Of a stretch of DNA of 7,044 bases, positions 1-6,882 are shown one piece after another. Within the stretch, counting starts at the first letter, position 1. The number at the start of each line of letters is the position of its first letter. Position numbers and translations under genes: made by a program. The stretch is from Gemmatimonadota bacterium (GTDB taxonomy: Bacteria > Latescibacterota > UBA2968 > UBA8231). Location: NCBI GenBank assembly GCA_026706505.1, contig JAPOYQ010000465.1:1-7044 (forward strand). Direction: 5' to 3'. The notes below the pieces were generated by a model. The model ran no database searches. It had not been told where the DNA came from and saw only the letters and a program-made list of their open reading frames with translations.

Positions 1-780
1 GGCGACGAGTTGGGTCTCGATAAACTCCACCTTGGGCGCGCCGTCGGCCTTGGTTTTGGCGTTCATGCCGTGATCGGCGGTAATGCCCAAGATAATGTCT
101 TGGGCGTCGAGCGCGCCGATAAAGCGGTCGAGGCGCGCGTAGAAGGCGTTGGCTTCCGGCTCGCCGGGTGCCCACTTGTGTTGGACGAAATCGGTTGTAG
201 AAAGGTAGAGCAGGTCGAGGTCGTAGCGTTCGAGTAGACGCGCGCCGGCCTCGATGCAGTACACGCTGGCTTCGGGATCGTAGATACCGGGGTTTTCCCG
301 GCCGACTAGGTCGAGGACGTCGCCGATGCCGTGGGTGGATGGCGCGGCTTCGTGCGCTTTTTCGACGGAGAAATTGATGCCGTGCCAGCCGTGGGCCAAA
401 AGCAAGCGCAGCTTGTCTTTGGTGGTGATGGCGGCGACTTGTTGGCCAGCTTGATGGAAGGCGGCGAGGATCGTCGGAGCGCGCAGGAAGCGAGGGTCGT
501 TCATCATCACTTCCTCAGCGGCATCTAGGTCGTAGTAGAAATTGCCGGGAATGCCGTTTATGGCCGGCGGCGCACCCGTGATGATGGCGACGTTGTTGGG
601 ATTGGTGAAAGAGGGAATGACGGTGTGGACTTGGCCGTGGACGCCGCGCTCGATGATCGAGCGGAGATTGGGCATCTGGGCGGCAGCTTCGTCGAGGTAG
701 GCCTGGGAGCAGCCGTCGAGGCAGATGCCGACGATAGTTTTGTCGCGCGGGCGATAGCCGCGGTCATTGACTTGAATCAT
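1..780 (-). CDS. phnA: Phosphonoacetate hydrolase PhnA (partial, C-terminus beyond window)
   Basis: Alkaline-phosphatase-superfamily, metal-dependent enzyme that hydrolyses the C-P bond of phosphonoacetate to acetate and phosphate, probably in the cytosol (no signal peptide is seen). Reading back from the ATG at 780-778 gives 260 residues without a stop. Family hallmarks are all present: first metal Asp in ICLDGC (D22), nucleophile Thr in PSFTNPNN (T59), the block EEVMMNDPRFLRAPTILAAF (89-108), the KDK pair thought to bind substrate (K121, K123), DFVQH (D197, H201) and ADHGMN (D236, H237). Spacing of these residues agrees with my memory of the Sinorhizobium PhnA structure. The family is about 400 residues long, so roughly 150 residues, including the last metal His, lie outside the window. 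The start overlaps the stop of the upstream dehydrogenase as ATGA, and the Shine-Dalgarno is poor, so expression is probably translationally coupled. The family call is strong; the exact substrate is inferred. Confidence 0.92.
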   Translation of the reverse strand, partial: MIQVNDRGYRPRDKTIVGICLDGCSQAYLDEAAAQMPNLRSIIERGVHGQVHTVIPSFTNPNNVAIITGAPPAINGIPGNFYYDLDAAEEVMMNDPRFLRAPTILAAFHQAGQQVAAITTKDKLRLLLAHGWHGINFSVEKAHEAAPSTHGIGDVLDLVGRENPGIYDPEASVYCIEAGARLLERYDLDLLYLSTTDFVQHKWAPGEPEANAFYARLDRFIGALDAQDIILGITADHGMNAKTKADGAPKVEFIETQLVA

Positions 781-1802
781 GCGTTGGGAGCAACGGCGAC
801 GCGGATGTGCTGGCGGGTTTCGGCCAAGGCGATGGCTTGCTCTAGCTCAGCGAGGGCAAAGGGGTCGCTGACCAGCGACGAGTACGGGTAGCGGTCGGCG
901 GTGTGGGCGAGAAAGGCGAGTGCCTCGTCGAGATGGCGAGGGCTGTAGTTGTGGACGCCGCGGATCGTCAGGCACTTGCGGATGACCTGTTCGCCGGTCA
1001 ACTCTAGCCGAGTGTCGGGGTGGACCATGCCGACGAAGACGTAGTTGCCGCCCGGGCGCAGGGCCGAGACCCCCAAGGGAATCAAGTCCGCGTTGCCGGC
1101 GACTTCAAAAACAGCGTCGAGTCCTTCCGGTGACGGATCAATCACGGGTATAGCGCCGAATTCGCTGGACAGCGCTAGGCGGTCCGCGTCGATGTCGGTG
1201 CAGTAGATTTGCTCAATGCCGCGCTCGGCGAGCAGGGCGCACGTATAGAGGCCGAGCAGACCAGCGCCCTGGACCAGAACCTTGTCGCAGGGGGTGGGCA
1301 GCACCGCGATGGCGTTGACCGCAGTGGCCAAGGCGCAGTTGGCTGGGGCGACTGCGGAGTCGGGCAAGCGGTCGTCCACCTTGGCGATGTGGGTGCCGGG
1401 TCTAATGAGCAAATGCGTGGCGTAACAGCCGTTGAGTCCGCTGCCGTCGGTGAGCGTGGCGTGGCCGTATTTGAAGAGCGCGGCGCATTTTTCCGGCAGG
1501 CGATGTTCGGTGCATGCCACACAGGTACCGCAACTGTCGGCGATAGTCCAGCTTACGCGGTCGCCTAGTGCCGAGGTAGGACGCTGCGAGGCGACGACGC
1601 GGCCGACGGCCTCGTGGCCGAGGATCAGGGGCGTAGGCTCCGTGCGCAGGCCGGACAGCGTATGGAGGTCGGAGCCGCAGATCGTGGCAAGGCCGATCTC
1701 GACGAGCACTTCACCCGGCGCGAGGGAATCGGGTAGTGGCAGGCTTTCGCAGCGTAGCGGATGGTCTAGGCCGTCGAATACCTGTGCGCAGGCCGTGGGC
1801 AT
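777..1802 (-). CDS. Zinc-dependent alcohol dehydrogenase, phosphonate-catabolism-associated type
   Basis: Complete 341-residue medium-chain dehydrogenase (MDR superfamily). The catalytic zinc site is visible as C42 (ICGSD) and H63-E64 (GHEAVG), with C156 (ANCA) as a likely further ligand. The structural zinc lobe has four cysteines, C91, C94, C97 and C106, in the usual C-x2-C-x2-C-x8-C arrangement. The nucleotide-binding fold has GAGLLG at 179-184, and the acidic D203 after the next strand favours NAD over NADP. The sequence resembles the subgroup described as 'putative phosphonate catabolism associated alcohol dehydrogenase' (TIGR03366, HpnZ, from memory), and the position directly before phnA supports that. 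No member's substrate is known to me; a hydroxyalkyl-phosphonate is a reasonable guess. It starts 3 nt after the SDR-B stop and its TGA overlaps the phnA ATG. A generic threonine- or sorbitol-type dehydrogenase is the alternative. Confidence 0.88.
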   Translation of the reverse strand: MPTACAQVFDGLDHPLRCESLPLPDSLAPGEVLVEIGLATICGSDLHTLSGLRTEPTPLILGHEAVGRVVASQRPTSALGDRVSWTIADSCGTCVACTEHRLPEKCAALFKYGHATLTDGSGLNGCYATHLLIRPGTHIAKVDDRLPDSAVAPANCALATAVNAIAVLPTPCDKVLVQGAGLLGLYTCALLAERGIEQIYCTDIDADRLALSSEFGAIPVIDPSPEGLDAVFEVAGNADLIPLGVSALRPGGNYVFVGMVHPDTRLELTGEQVIRKCLTIRGVHNYSPRHLDEALAFLAHTADRYPYSSLVSDPFALAELEQAIALAETRQHIRVAVAPNA

Positions 1803-1805
1803 AGG

Positions 1806-2540
1806 CTAGCCTTGCGGCTTGCGCCAGTAGCCCTCTAACAGGTCTTGCGGCACCCAGCCCAGCAGGCGTCGGGCTTTGGCGTTGCTGTAGCGGCCGTGGG
1901 GCGTGTCCGTGGTGATGTGGAAGATCTCGCAGCGCGAGGGCAGGGACGCCAAGTCCACCTCTAGGCACTTTTGCAGGGCGCGGGCGGCGTCGGGAAAAGT
2001 GACGGAAAAGGGATTGGTGCCGCTGCCGAGTTGCTCGGCGGACGGCTCGGCGTCGCGAAAGCTCAAAAAGAGGGTAGTGAGCACGTGGATGGGATGGTTG
2101 GCGGCGAAGACGCGGCAAATCTCTTGGCCGAGCGATTTGGTGTGCGCGTAGAGGCCGACGCCTGAATGCAGGGGGACTTCTTCGTTGATGTCGAAATCGT
2201 AATGCTCGTACGAGGGGCCGGCTTGGGTGAAGTGGGGTCCGGTGTTGACGAAGCGAGTGTGGCCGTTCTCGACGGCGGCGCGAATGCCGTTGTACGTGCC
2301 AGTGGTACTGACGTCAAAGGCGATCTTGCGGTCGTGGCGCAGTACTGAGCAGTTGATGGTTACATCGGTGCCTTCGGTGGCGCGGCGCACTTGATCGAGG
2401 TCGGAGACATCGACCTGCATGGTTTCGTGCGGGCTGTCGATGGGTACGATGTCGGTGATGCGCAGCTCGTAGGTGTCCTGGAGTTGCTTAACCACATGCG
2501 GGCCGAGAAAGCCATTGCCACCGAGGAGCAAAACTTTCAT
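1806..2540 (-). CDS. NAD(P)-dependent epimerase/dehydratase-like SDR with intact motifs (SDR-B)
   Basis: Complete 244-residue extended-type short-chain dehydrogenase/reductase. The N-terminal Rossmann motif is intact (GGNGFLG, residues 7-13, i.e. G7, G10 and G13). An acidic residue after the second strand (D30 in RITDI) favours NAD. The catalytic pair is present as Y131-x3-K135 (YAHTK), and the helix motif TTGTYN (79-84) is typical of nucleotide-sugar epimerases and related reductases. It is shorter than most epimerases (about 310 or more residues), so the C-terminal substrate domain is reduced. It ends with the RRLLGWVPQ element (225-231 region) often found at the end of this family. Its ATG overlaps the stop of SDR-A (ATGA), with a GAGG Shine-Dalgarno about 8 nt upstream, and it ends 3 nt before the alcohol dehydrogenase. 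The substrate is unknown; the operon suggests oxidation, reduction or epimerisation of a phosphonate or a sugar-linked intermediate. Confidence 0.85.
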   Translation of the reverse strand: MKVLLLGGNGFLGPHVVKQLQDTYELRITDIVPIDSPHETMQVDVSDLDQVRRATEGTDVTINCSVLRHDRKIAFDVSTTGTYNGIRAAVENGHTRFVNTGPHFTQAGPSYEHYDFDINEEVPLHSGVGLYAHTKSLGQEICRVFAANHPIHVLTTLFLSFRDAEPSAEQLGSGTNPFSVTFPDAARALQKCLEVDLASLPSRCEIFHITTDTPHGRYSNAKARRLLGWVPQDLLEGYWRKPQG

Positions 2541-3226
2541 GGGTTGGCCTCAAAGTTGTATTGGGGATCGAACGTTAGGTGGCTCTTGGCGCGCTCGACG
2601 GAAAAGCGGGCGCGTGCCGCAGCGGACTGGATGTGGATGGCGTTGTACTGGCCGACTGGCCCCTTTTGCACAATCTGGGCCACGGCTTGGGCGGCGTCGC
2701 GCTCGTCGAGCCACATGGAATCGTAGGGCTGGTCGGCGACCTCTTCGGCGCGGACGAGGTGGCCAAGGCGGGCAATGGTGATGTGGAGTTCGTGGCTGTG
2801 GGCAAATTCGCGGGCGGTAAACTCGGCTAGGTGAGCACCGAGAACGGCCGGCGCGCAGGAGGGCAGCGGCTTCCAAGTCTCGTCAACGGTGAGGTCTTCT
2901 TCGTACGAGGCGAAAAGGTCGAGCGTGCTCACGAGAATGGCGTGTTCGACCTCCGCGGCGGCCGCGGCCAAGAGAAGATTGTACGTGCCGCGCGTATTGC
3001 GGTCCAGCCAAGTGTTTTCGCCGTCGCCGTCGCGCGGCTCGTATGCGAGATGGATGATGATGTCGATGTCTTTGACGAGCTCGTCGGTTTCTGAGTCGTG
3101 CCCCAGATTACTCTGAATCCCGAATCTAGGCTCAAAGTCGGTCAAGCGCACTTGGTGTGCGTCGCCGAGGCTATCAGCTAGGGCTTGGCCGAGCGAGGTT
3201 GCGGCGTTGGTAATGAGTACGCGCAT
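2537..3226 (-). CDS. Degenerate SDR-fold protein, probable pseudoenzyme (SDR-A)
   Basis: Complete 229-residue protein that aligns with the extended SDR fold and with the next gene, SDR-B, but lacks the active-site residues. Shared features are the first strand (MRVLITNAA), the acidic D30 in RLTDFEP, the NTRGTYN helix (77-83) and a WLDERDAAQAV segment (172-182) like the conserved Asp-Ala-Ala region of epimerases. Of the three glycines of GxxGxxG only G13 remains (N7 and T10 replace the others). At the YxxxK position the aligned residues are G130 and A134. The reading frame is open and well packed, so this is not a decaying pseudogene but more likely a protein with a structural, regulatory or non-redox role. 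It starts 4 nt after the guaB-like stop and overlaps SDR-B by ATGA. The fold call is fairly firm; the function is unknown. Confidence 0.78.
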   Translation of the reverse strand: MRVLITNAATSLGQALADSLGDAHQVRLTDFEPRFGIQSNLGHDSETDELVKDIDIIIHLAYEPRDGDGENTWLDRNTRGTYNLLLAAAAAEVEHAILVSTLDLFASYEEDLTVDETWKPLPSCAPAVLGAHLAEFTAREFAHSHELHITIARLGHLVRAEEVADQPYDSMWLDERDAAQAVAQIVQKGPVGQYNAIHIQSAAARARFSVERAKSHLTFDPQYNFEANP

Positions 3227-3230
3227 AGCC

Positions 3231-4712
3231 TTAGAGGACCTGCTGGTCGGTCGGAGTGGGGACGATGTCGTGGATCTGGCTGTCCATCAGCGCGGTGGAC
3301 GACTGCATTTCGAGCACGGCCTTTTCGTGCAACTCGTCGATGGTGCGGCAACCGGCCGTGGCGAGGGTGGCGCGCAGCATCTGGATGCGGATCGGCAATT
3401 TGTCGTGAATCGAGCCGATGTGGGGCACGTAGCCGGCGATGCCCTCCTCGAAGAAGTTCTCTCGCGTCTGTGCATAGCGCCGCATGTTGTGGGCGCGCAG
3501 CGAACCTTCCATCCAGTACTCTTTGACGATGTCGCCGGCCGCGGTGCGCACGAGGTTGCCTTGACTTTCGGTGTAGCCAGCGAAGAAGCTCCCCATCATC
3601 ACGGCGTTGGCGCCCAAGGCCATGGCCACGGCGATCTCGGACGGGCCTGAAATGCCTCCGTCGGCGATGATGGGCAAGTACGCGTTGCAATCCTGCTGCC
3701 ACTGGTTGCGCGCCGCGTTGATTTCCATCAAGGCCGTGCCTTGGCCGCGGCCCGTGGCCTTGACTTCCTGAGTAATGCAGCCCGAGGCGATTCCCATGCC
3801 GACTTTGATGGCGTCGGCACCGGTCTCGGCCAAGAAGCGAAACCCCTCGGCCGTGACGACGTTGCCGCCGATGACTGGGGCGTCGGTGCGCTCCTTGAGG
3901 AATTGGATCATCTGCCGCTGGTACTCGGTGTGGCCGTCGGAGGCGTCGATGACCAGCACGTCCACTTCTTGCGCAATGAGGGCTTCGGCCCGCTCGCGGT
4001 CCTCCGGGTGGGTGGAGACGGCCGCGCCGACGAGCAGGCGCTTCTGTTCGTCGATGGATTCGTTGGGATGCCGCAGGTGCTTGTCGAGGTCCTTTTTGAA
4101 GACCACTGCTTGTAGCACTCCCCCTTTGGACAGAATGGGCAGGAAGCCGCGACCGTAGCGGATCATTAGCTCGTTGGCGGCCTTGAGGTCGCTTATTTCG
4201 CGGCCGGCCTGCACGTCGGTTTTCATGCGGGAGGCGACTTGGCAGTCGAGATCGCGGCGCTCGTCGAAGTCCTTGTCGGTGAGGATGCCGAGGAGTTGGT
4301 CGTGGAACTGGCCGCTGGTGGTGACCGGGAAGGTCGTGTAGCCGGTGCGGTGGATGATCTCGACGACCTCGGCGATGGGCTGCTCGGGAGATAAGGTGAG
4401 AATATCGGTCTGAAAACCGGCCTTGAAGCGCTTGACTTGGCCGACCTTGGCGCACTGCTCGTCAATAGGCTGGCTGACGGGCAGGATGCCAATGCCGCCT
4501 AGCTGGGCCAAGGCAATGGCCATCTCGCCGCCGGTTACGGCCTGCATGGCGGCGCTGAGAAAGGGCACGTGCAGATAGAGAAAGTCGTCCCCCTTGCGGC
4601 AGAGCCGGGTTTTCAGCGATGCGTTGGGTGCGTTGCCGTCGGTGGGCGTGTACCCGGGCAGAATGCGAAATTCTTTGAGGCTGTGGGAAGGGGTGCTCAG
4701 GACTTGGGCCAT
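3231..4712 (-). CDS. guaB: IMP dehydrogenase, variant subtype with two CBS domains
   Basis: 493 residues from the preferred start, the usual size for inosine-5'-monophosphate dehydrogenase, which oxidises IMP to XMP with NAD in guanine nucleotide synthesis. Seen from the N-terminus (numbering from this start): barrel start with PFLSAAMQAV (50-59), a CBS pair at about 99-214, the IDASDGHTEY segment (256-265), GGNVVTAEG (282-290), catalytic loop MGIASGCITQEVKATGRGQ (306-324) with Cys312, IADGGI (349-354), MMGSFFAG (372-379), and the flap with EGSLRAHNMRRYAQ carrying the catalytic Arg-Tyr (R412-Y413). The loop differs from the standard GPGSICTT, and the flap block KEYWMEGS...FEEGI matches a subtype I recall from Clostridia and Bacteroidota. 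The ATG at 4712 has GAGAGGA 5 nt upstream. An in-frame ATG at 4778 lies inside the promoter spacer and has no Shine-Dalgarno. It heads the phosphonate operon, an odd partner. GMP reductase is unlikely because of the CBS pair. Confidence 0.9.
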   Translation of the reverse strand: MAQVLSTPSHSLKEFRILPGYTPTDGNAPNASLKTRLCRKGDDFLYLHVPFLSAAMQAVTGGEMAIALAQLGGIGILPVSQPIDEQCAKVGQVKRFKAGFQTDILTLSPEQPIAEVVEIIHRTGYTTFPVTTSGQFHDQLLGILTDKDFDERRDLDCQVASRMKTDVQAGREISDLKAANELMIRYGRGFLPILSKGGVLQAVVFKKDLDKHLRHPNESIDEQKRLLVGAAVSTHPEDRERAEALIAQEVDVLVIDASDGHTEYQRQMIQFLKERTDAPVIGGNVVTAEGFRFLAETGADAIKVGMGIASGCITQEVKATGRGQGTALMEINAARNQWQQDCNAYLPIIADGGISGPSEIAVAMALGANAVMMGSFFAGYTESQGNLVRTAAGDIVKEYWMEGSLRAHNMRRYAQTRENFFEEGIAGYVPHIGSIHDKLPIRIQMLRATLATAGCRTIDELHEKAVLEMQSSTALMDSQIHDIVPTPTDQQVL

Positions 4713-4762: not shown

Positions 4763-4791
4763 AGTATAAAAATAGCATTGGTTTTATTCAA
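4763..4791 (-). promoter_or_regulatory. Sigma70-type promoter of the guaB-SDR-ADH-phnA operon
   Basis: On the minus strand, TTGAAT (4791-4786) and TATACT (4768-4763) are separated by exactly 17 bases, matching the -35 and -10 consensus at 4 of 6 and 5 of 6 positions. Transcription would begin near 4756, giving a leader of about 44 nt before the ATG at 4712. The spacing, the AT-rich setting and the position directly before a five-gene operon make this the most convincing promoter in the window. No PhoB-type direct repeat (CTGTCAT twice) is visible beside it. Confidence 0.7.
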
Positions 4792-4849: not shown

Positions 4850-5101
4850 ATGTTCTACGAAAAAATCTATCCCCGGAACAACCATTCGACCGACGGCATG
4901 ACGTGTCTCTTGGCAGGTTTTGTGGCTGGCGTCGCGGTCGGCGCAGCCGTGGGTGTGTTACTGGCCCCGAACAAGGGCGAGGACACCCGGCGCTTGATCA
5001 AGGACCAAGCCGAAGAAACGCGCGACCAAGTGGTGAAGGCTGTGAACGGGGTGACGGCGCGGTTCGAAAAGAAGGCCCCACAGGAGGAAGAGGCGGCCTA
5101 A
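4850..5101 (+). CDS. YtxH-like small membrane-associated protein
   Basis: Complete 83-residue protein, the only plus-strand gene. After a short polar N-terminus (1-16) it has one hydrophobic segment at about 17-39 containing a glycine zipper (G23, G27, G31 and G35, every fourth residue), followed at once by LLAPNKGEDTRR (37-48), the LLAP-x2-G-x2-TR signature of the YtxH/gas-vesicle-protein-like family. Residues 44-73 form a charged amphipathic helix probably on the cytoplasmic side, and the end is acidic (EEEAA). Members are small, often stress-linked proteins with no defined biochemical activity. It has its own excellent ribosome binding site, is divergent from the phosphonate operon, and converges with the ABC exporter with overlapping stop codons, so it is probably a single-gene transcript. 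Its relation to the neighbouring genes is unknown. Confidence 0.85.
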   Translation: MFYEKIYPRNNHSTDGMTCLLAGFVAGVAVGAAVGVLLAPNKGEDTRRLIKDQAEETRDQVVKAVNGVTARFEKKAPQEEEAA

Positions 5102-6882
5102 GACCGGTCGTAGTTGAGGCGGTAGAGGCGCGCGTAGATGCCGTCTTGGAGCAATAGTTCTTCGTGGCGGCCTCGCTCGCGCACCTCGCCTCGGTGCATC
5201 ACCAAGATCTGGTCGGCACTGCGGATGGTCGAGAGGCGGTGGGCGATGACGATGGAGGTACGCTCGCTCATCAGCTTGGCAATGGCGTCTTGGATGAGTT
5301 GTTCGGTCTCGGTGTCGATGCTGGAGGTGGCCTCGTCGAGGACGAGGATTTTCGGGTCGAAGGCTAAGGCTCGGGCAAAGGCCAACAATTGGCGCTGGCC
5401 GGCCGATAGGGTCGAGCCGCCTTCGGCTACGGCGTGGGCGTAGCCTTGGGGGAGGCGTTCGATGAAGGGCGCGGCGTTGACGTAGCGGGCCGCGCGCTCG
5501 ACTTGGGCGTCGTCGATGGCGTCCTCCCCGAGGCGGATGTTGCCGCTGATATTCCCAGAAAATAAGAAGACCTCCTGCTGGACGATGCTGATGCGGCGGC
5601 GCAATTCCGCGGTGTGCCATTGGCGCACGTCGCGGCCATCGACGAGGATTTCTCCGCGCTGGATGTCGTAGAAGCGGCAGAGGAGGCTGACGATAGTGGT
5701 CTTGCCCGAGCCGGTGGCCCCGACCAATGCCATGCTCTGTCCGGCCTGTAGTTCAAACGAGACATCCTTGAGAATCCAGTCTTCGGCTGCTGGATCGTAT
5801 TTAAAGAACACGTTGCGGAATTCAATCTGTCCTCCGCGGCTGGCCACGGGCAGATTGCGCTGCGGTCCGCCGGTGGGTTCGCCGGGGACGGCCAATAGCT
5901 CGAAGATGCGCTCGGACGCGGCCATGGCGCTCTGCAGCAGGGCGTAGCGGTCGGAGATGTCCATGATCGGGCGGAAGAAGCGGCGGATGTACTGGAGAAA
6001 GGCCACCAGCACCCCCAGCTCAATGCGGTCGTCGATCACGTCCGAGGCCCCGTACCACAGCACTAGCACCATGCCGACGGTGCCGAGTAATTCGGTGAAG
6101 GGGAAGAAGAGGGCATAGAAGTGGATTTCGCGGTCTTCGGCGCGGCGATAGGGCAGGTGCTCGGCGTCGAAGTCGCGCAAATTGCGCTGCTGGCGGTTGA
6201 AGAGCTGCACCACCTCCACACCGGTGATATTCTCTTGCAAATAGGCATTGAGCCGCGCCAAGCGCGTGCGCAACTCGCGATAGGCGCGCATGGCTAGGCC
6301 CTGTAGGTAGAAGGTCGAGATGGCGATGACTGGAACCACTGTGCAGCAGATCAGGGCGAGCTCGAAGTCGATATAGGCCATGAAGCAGACGATGGCCAGC
6401 AGGGTGAACAGGTCCATAAAGACCGAGACGACGCCCTCGCTGAAAAATTCGTTGAGCGCGTCGATGTCGTTGGTGGCGCGGGTCATAACCCGCCCCAGCG
6501 GCGTGCGATCGAAGTAGCGCAGCGGCAGCTTTTGCAGATGGGCGAAGAGATCGCGGCGCATGTCGTACATGACGCGCTGGCCGATCATGCCGGTGACCAA
6601 GGTCTGGGCGTATTGAGCGCCGTACTGCACGGCAACGCTGCCAAAGAAGGCCGCGATCATCCACCGCAAACCCACCCAGTCGCCGATGGCGATGTAGTCG
6701 TCAACCGCTACCTGCGTGATATAGGGACCGACTTGGCCGAAGCCTGCGGCGAGGGCAATGGTGCCGAAGGCGAGGATTACGTACCCGCGGTGGGGCTTGA
6801 GATACCCCAACAGTTGCAGCGTCAGCCCCAAGTTGAAGGCGCGTTCCTGGATTTCTTCTTCTTTGTTGAGTTCGGTGCTCAC
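5098..6882 (-). CDS. ABC exporter half-transporter, second subunit of a pair (MDR type)
   Basis: Complete 594-residue protein with a fused transmembrane domain and ATPase domain, the standard size for type IV (B-type) exporters. The membrane domain spans about 30-320 with the usual six hydrophobic segments; [20 protein letters not shown] (121-140) is the conserved intracellular loop. The ATPase domain starts near 352. Walker A is GATGSGKT (388-395), the Q-loop is at Q435/Q436, the signature is LSAGQ (492-496), Walker B is ILVLDE (512-517) with catalytic Glu517, and the switch His is H548, so all its own motifs are intact. It starts with GTG (6882-6880), which overlaps the TGA of the preceding exporter gene as GTGA; no suitable ATG lies nearby. 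This arrangement resembles YheI/YheH (BmrC/BmrD) heterodimeric drug exporters. The substrate is not predictable; lipid or drug export are both possible. Confidence 0.9.

Follow-up and report, generated by a model that had tools for sequence, protein, structure and literature searches.

Routes that end in the phosphonoacetate hydrolase PhnA are the closest described counterparts of the genes considered here: the PhnWYA pathway, and the PbfD2–PhnY–PhnA pathway proposed by Zangelmi et al. 2023, with Luteolibacter luteus as the example (PMC10590968). In the excerpts of that paper on which we draw, PbfC and PbfD enzymes oxidise N-methyl-2-aminoethylphosphonate, and some of them also 2-aminoethylphosphonate (AEP), to phosphonoacetaldehyde, and PbfD1 is annotated as TIGR03364. 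Excerpts of two further papers report phnW, phnY and phnA in sponge-associated Latescibacterota metagenome-assembled genomes (MAGs; PMC12993501), and the accessory enzymes PbfA and PbfF in phosphonate clusters (PMC12366243). Here we describe a stretch of 7,044 nucleotides (“the window”; contig JAPOYQ010000465.1, assembly GCA_026706505.1, placed by GTDB in Latescibacterota) in which phnA closes a minus-strand string of five genes, headed by an inosine 5′-monophosphate (IMP) dehydrogenase (IMPDH) and including two short-chain dehydrogenases/reductases (SDR1 and SDR2) and an alcohol dehydrogenase (ADH). The string probably combines three units in tight packing: the only guaB, a lineage-specific SDR pair, and the ADH–PhnA end of a known phosphonate route.

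The junctions of IMPDH–SDR1–SDR2–ADH–phnA are exactly +4, ATGA, +3 and ATGA, and the genes are presumably co-transcribed. A scan of genome contigs with the IMPDH alignment gave 47 loci (numbered L; genomes are numbered G), mostly labelled Latescibacterota or Gemmatimonadota. The exact five-gene order is found in six of these (L001–L005 and L007). An additional gene separates IMPDH from SDR1 in L015 and L017, which otherwise keep the order, as does L044 except that its ADH is broken; the SDR and IMPDH genes thus recur with phnA in 9/47 loci. Over all 7044 bases the window is 94.5% identical to L002 in DNA; the values are 94.1% for L004, 93.1% for L005, 94.7% for L001 (over 5073 bases) and 92.5–93.1% for L003 (in two pieces), with L044 and L006 next at 89–90%. 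Every compared gene is under purifying selection, with Nei–Gojobori ratios of nonsynonymous to synonymous substitution (dN/dS) of 0.01–0.38 against up to six relatives. A sequence-only reading of the window had described this five-gene string and its junctions, and coordinates, families and a recurrence beyond chance agree with it.

For 37 of the 47 loci the genomes were searched with PF00478, and 22 of these genomes, which we call the relatives, also with PhnA, PhnY, PhnW, PhnX, HpnW, HpnZ and GuaA. Only G003 and G035 are single-contig genomes; absences in the others are soft (completeness and contamination figures were not supplied), and all genome counts ignore shared descent. Genes were called with a custom caller that is poor in some distant loci, and the contexts of L040, L043 and L046 were left out.

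The phosphonate module

The window edge cuts phnA (1..780, minus strand) to its N-terminal 260 aa, which match TIGR02335 at 300 bits over model positions 1–259 of 408; the full-length PhnA of L002 (405 aa) reaches 473.5 bits against a cut-off of 407.55. Four motifs, LDGC, SFTNPNN, STTDxVQHK and TADHG, which we take to be the nucleophile and metal-site motifs of PhnA, align between L002 and 1ei6 and are the same in the window translation, and the C-terminal His motif falls outside the window.

The five closest relatives (L001–L005) all have a TIGR03364 FAD (flavin adenine dinucleotide) oxidase downstream of phnA. In L003 a PhnY lies between the two, starting at the phnA stop (TIGR03250, 651 bits, above cut-off); the same phnA–PhnY–oxidase order is found in L007, L017 and L020, and in L018 PhnY is present after phnA and the oxidase is absent, so PhnY directly follows phnA in 5/11 loci with phnA at the guaB site. 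In L001, L002, L004 and L005 the oxidase lies about 30 to 210 bases past phnA, with no PhnY in the cluster. The genomes G001, G002, G004 and G005 carry a PhnY-type gene elsewhere (L078–L081; 622–626 bits against the TIGR03250 cut-off of 635.65), about 48% identical to the L003 PhnY; L078, L080 and L081 share common neighbours, one of which is also found on the short contig L079. From these comparisons it looks as if the in-cluster PhnY had been replaced by a distant homologue in four close relatives.

PhnW is absent from the window and above cut-off in none of the seven closest-clade genomes (G001–G006, G035); it exceeds the cut-off in 3/22 relatives: in G018, and in G008 and G009, where it lies next to a PhnA–PhnY pair at a separate locus. 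The sequence-only reading, blind to genes past phnA because the window edge cuts PhnA at 260 aa, had taken both PhnW and PhnY to be missing: for PhnW the relatives concur, with a PbfD-type FAD oxidase in its place, and for PhnY they do not. As an alternative fate of phosphonoacetaldehyde, PhnX was rejected, being above cut-off in 0/22 relatives.

Across the 22 relatives, a PhnY-type gene (at least 613 bits; range 613–651) occurs together with PhnA in 11 genomes and alone in none, PhnA occurs without it in two, and nine have neither. The TIGR03364 oxidase is above cut-off in 10/22, the five closest included, and all ten have PhnA. In two genomes the module is broken or lost: in G035 PhnA is kept, the ADH is broken, the oxidase is down to a 123-base remnant, and the best TIGR03250 match has 377 bits, and G006 retains a 90-base remnant of the ADH, with no PhnA or oxidase above cut-off and no TIGR03250 match above 376 bits.

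The ADH (777..1802, minus strand, 341 aa) is an HpnZ-like zinc alcohol dehydrogenase, its best family being TIGR03366 at 302 bits, below the cut-off of 328.1 and leading by about 200 bits; its relatives in G014 and G017 exceed the cut-off. It is found at 280 bits or more in 14/22 genomes, 12 of which have PhnA above cut-off. G014 and G019 make up the remainder, and in G019 a PhnA end fragment adjoins the HpnZ-like ADH on another contig; PhnA without such an ADH occurs in G035 only. This co-occurrence bears out the view that the alcohol dehydrogenase belongs with phnA. The cluster is, as the sequence-only reading held, a phosphonate one. No paper relevant by title to the function of the ADH was found in a literature search on TIGR03366/HpnZ; by its distribution it tracks phnA and may feed hydroxy-phosphonates into the route.

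We propose no new chemistry for this part. ADH–PhnA would be the end of a module whose remaining genes, beyond the window, include a PbfD-type FAD oxidase, PhnY being either next to phnA or elsewhere in the genome. The oxidase would oxidatively deaminate AEP or N-methyl-AEP to phosphonoacetaldehyde, PhnY would convert this to phosphonoacetate, and PhnA would release phosphate and acetate; the ADH probably oxidises a hydroxy-phosphonate (e.g., 2-hydroxyethylphosphonate) to the aldehyde, entering at that point. In comparison with the PbfD2–PhnY–PhnA pathway, as far as the excerpts of PMC10590968 describe it, the module of L003, L007, L017 and L020 has the same TIGR03364 oxidase, PhnY and PhnA and no adjacent PhnW. 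It differs in sitting behind guaB (three of the four loci also have the SDR pair), in the presence of the HpnZ-like ADH, and in the four close relatives whose PhnY-type gene is a distant one outside the cluster. With the PhnWYA pathway the relatives share PhnA and PhnY, and differ from it in the rarity of PhnW. The gene content thus suggests that the phosphonate part fits the already proposed PbfD–PhnY–PhnA route.

IMP dehydrogenase as guaB

The IMPDH (3231..4712, minus strand, 493 aa, with a CBS domain) matches PF00478 with an E value of 4e-96. An alternative start at 4778 is also open; we prefer 4712 because a Shine–Dalgarno-like GAGAGG precedes it and because the listed relatives are most often 493 aa long. 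The protein is of the Tritrichomonas foetus/Lmo0132 type (1ak5, 8ebc), aligning with 1ak5 over its full length (336 bits) with the Cys loop and the Arg-Tyr pair in register; the loop reads ASGCITQE, in contrast to GGSICITRE. C312 in this loop, R412 and Y413, which we take to be the catalytic Cys and the Arg-Tyr flap, are invariant in 24 aligned IMPDH sequences (the window and 23 others out of the best 120 of 4902 matches, obtained by scoring the 7998 candidates with most shared words). It remains under the NCBIfam equivalog cut-offs (NF005493, 433 of 585 bits; TIGR01302, 348 of 481.5 bits), which marks it as a divergent IMPDH.

A single full-length IMPDH is present in 29/37 genomes searched, including all 22 relatives and the single-contig G003 and G035. 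A second guaB was sought in the 22 relatives and rejected, all other PF00478 matches being fragments of at most 42 bits. GMP (guanosine monophosphate) synthase was found in 19 of them and not in G011, G016 and G017. Eight of the 37 genomes (G025, G028, G030–G034, G037) have more than one full-length IMPDH, and the G025 locus, L028, is labelled Latescibacterota. In these eight (the genomes of L028, L032, L035, L036, L038, L040, L043 and L046) the Tritrichomonas-type enzyme is accompanied by one or more further full-length IMPDHs, and five of the eight records are labelled as Proteobacteria groups.

Upstream of IMPDH lie a divergent gene for a YtxH-like small protein (4850..5101, plus strand), outside the phosphonate module, and an MsbA-like ABC (ATP-binding cassette) exporter (5098..6882, minus strand), both part of a conserved guaB neighbourhood. 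L011, L012 and L034 have two ABC genes, YtxH and IMPDH in the same order without the SDR pair or phnA, with 2 to 4 kb separating the ABC genes from YtxH, and in 30/47 loci (some on short contigs) neither the SDR pair nor phnA is beside IMPDH. Since the IMPDH is the sole full-length copy in 22/22 relatives and its neighbourhood persists without phnA, the window IMPDH is, on these comparisons, a divergent guaB, and would make xanthosine monophosphate from IMP.

One could suppose instead that IMPDH moonlights as a phosphonoacetaldehyde dehydrogenase that replaces PhnY, forming a Cys thioester by means of its catalytic Cys and phosphate site. The Cys and the Arg-Tyr pair are kept, IMPDH heads the cluster, and four close relatives are without an in-cluster PhnY; the same four, however, carry another PhnY-type gene, the enzyme is their only IMPDH, and its constraint against L006, which has lost phnA (dN/dS 0.079), is like that against the other relatives (0.050–0.139). 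We regard this as extremely improbable. A literature search found no paper joining phosphonoacetate hydrolase, IMP dehydrogenase and phosphonate, and among the matches listed for phosphonate, operon and phnA there was none with IMP dehydrogenase.

Around guaB, several other associations were seen. A xylose isomerase-like gene with a triosephosphate isomerase barrel is directly behind guaB in L010–L013, L015, L017, L018 and L034; a Gfo/Idh gene follows guaB on the opposite strand in 17/47 loci, usually with an MlrC-like gene; and a divergent LysR-like gene, assigned by eye, adjoins IMPDH in L022 and L035. An Rfam scan of the window gave no riboswitch or other RNA above the gathering score.

The SDR1–SDR2 tandem

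The most novel element of the string is the recurrent tandem of a pseudo-SDR and an SDR, both matching PF01370/PF01073. SDR1 (2537..3226, minus strand, 229 aa), the first SDR in reading direction, is the degenerate one that had been noticed from the sequence: it has a uronate dehydrogenase-like fold without GxxGxxG and YxxxK, and these motifs are kept in 0/32 SDR1 sequences (28 out of the best 120 of 166 matches, three loci and the window). SDR2 (1806..2540, minus strand, 244 aa), ATGA-coupled to SDR1, has both motifs (GGNGFLG and YAHTK), as do 8/8 SDR2 sequences, window included. The AlphaFold model of SDR1 has a confidence (pLDDT) of 90.9, and its closest structures are uronate dehydrogenases and related sugar epimerases: 6mfh and 3rfx are among the best matches in sequence (6mfh, E 1.6e-18) and in fold, with template-modelling (TM) scores of 0.82 and 0.84; SDR1 differs from them in having neither the glycine motif nor YxxxK. 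PbfF racemase was rejected as the identity of the SDRs, as PbfF is pfam02826 in the excerpt of PMC12366243.

The two genes stay together well beyond guaB. In 30/30 loci fetched with SDR1 (L082–L111, one per genome), SDR2 immediately follows on the same strand, at a distance of no more than about 340 bases in 29 loci and of 432 bases in L109; 15 of these loci (L082–L096) are the guaB-locus pair, and the other 15 are pairs away from guaB. Across all loci scanned, which overlap, 53/57 SDR1 matches are paired; of the four others, one is in L109, L144 has a single isolated SDR1, and L148 has two SDR1-like genes in tandem. L126–L135 and L147 have SDR2-like genes with no SDR1. SDR1-like and SDR2-like genes are each found in 47/64 genomes of the phylum, often several per genome; the numbers of paralogues are approximate because the two models cross-match each other's targets at low scores. 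G003 has two further pairs, near 1.45 and 3.40 Mb: a gene of the 6-phosphogluconate/3-hydroxyisobutyrate dehydrogenase type precedes one, and the other has a Gfo/Idh oxidoreductase and a binding protein of sugar type as neighbours. Selection on the two differs, with dN/dS of 0.16–0.38 for SDR1 and 0.01–0.14 for SDR2; SDR1 is the most relaxed gene in 5/6 comparisons, the exception being that with L002, in which the ADH exceeds it.

Of the 47 IMPDH loci, 15 contain the pair, and nine of these have phnA; the other six (L006, L008, L016, L019, L039, and L009, whose contig ends there) are without phnA at the locus, and L018 and L020 have phnA without the pair. In G008 and G009 phnA is at the separate PhnW-bearing locus described above. 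SDR2 remains constrained (dN/dS 0.07–0.08) in L006 and L044, where the phosphonate module is lost or broken. By these comparisons the SDR pair is a lineage-specific unit separate from phosphonate cleavage, and the pseudo-SDR and its active, nicotinamide adenine dinucleotide (NAD)-dependent partner, both related to uronate dehydrogenase, probably assemble as a hetero-oligomer for the oxidation of a sugar-like substrate. A literature search gave no paper on heterodimers in which one short-chain dehydrogenase is inactive.

Two proposals would tie the pair more closely to phosphonates. In the first, it carries out an accessory step (alcohol oxidation or NAD-dependent isomerisation, for a wider substrate range) beside a PbfD–PhnY–PhnA core. 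PbfA and PbfF offer a precedent in such clusters, the pair and phnA are together in nine loci, and the pair is associated with PhnA across the relatives; this association may, however, reflect shared descent, L006, L016, L019 and L039 have the pair with no phnA beside it, and the paralogous pairs adjoin sugar-type genes, which makes the accessory role unlikely. The second, a somewhat bolder proposal and to us a distinctly doubtful one, is that an obligate two-subunit dehydrogenase, with a dead SDR serving a live one, has radiated into several paralogous pairs per Latescibacterota genome, and that the window pair was recruited as an accessory step by which PbfD–PhnY–PhnA could use a further hydroxy-phosphonate, guaB linking its expression to purine synthesis.

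Two further features of SDR1 homologues were observed. Four distant ones (P0210, P0218, P0223, P0230) have an N-terminal extension with, by eye, an RRxFL-type motif resembling a twin-arginine translocation signal, which suggests that the pseudo-SDR may be exported in other lineages. The best SDR1 matches in G066, G067 and G069–G076 cross one to three stop codons, apparently extending past the point where a shorter open frame ends.

Three units or one route

The sequence-only reading had assembled all of these genes into a single new route, in which a hydroxy- or keto-phosphonate is oxidised to phosphonoacetate by the combined action of the SDRs, the ADH and IMPDH, and PhnA cleaves the product, without PhnW or PhnY. 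The order kept with phnA in several relatives, the mild association of the pair with PhnA, a PhnW below cut-off in the closest relatives, and one genome (G015) that has these genes and PhnA and no PhnY match above 378 bits are all in its favour. Against it, PhnY-type genes are present in 11 and the FAD oxidase in 10 of the 13 genomes with PhnA, IMPDH is the sole guaB in the relatives, the SDR pair and phnA each occur alone, and the pair is kept, with SDR2 constrained, despite loss or breakage of the module. The reading had named two findings that would refute it: PhnW and PhnY just downstream, of which the PhnY half is seen in five loci, and SDR and IMPDH genes that never occur with phnA in related genomes, which the nine loci contradict. 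We consider such a route very improbable.

The division into three units does not account for everything, and several observations weigh against it. The window ends inside phnA, so the genes beyond are known from relatives only. Just 2/11 PhnY-type genes are above the curated TIGR03250 cut-off. G015 has the SDR pair, ADH and PhnA, with PhnY, oxidase and PhnW all below cut-off, so that its PhnA is fed otherwise or by phosphonoacetate uptake, or the MAG is incomplete. PhnA accompanies the SDR pair in 11/14 genomes versus 2/8 without it (Fisher p 0.026 over 22 genomes, kinship uncorrected). Finally, the tight packing of guaB with the other genes suggests co-expression, the reason for which the three units leave unexplained.

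The locus illustrates how a housekeeping gene at the head of a string can mislead the reading of an operon, and how a comparative test, based on relatives in which single genes have been lost, moved or replaced, separates a phosphonate route from its neighbours. For the Latescibacterota the comparisons suggest a hydrolytic phosphonate route without PhnW, including an apparent replacement of PhnY by a distant homologue, and the pseudo-SDR/SDR tandem represents a putative two-protein enzyme architecture.

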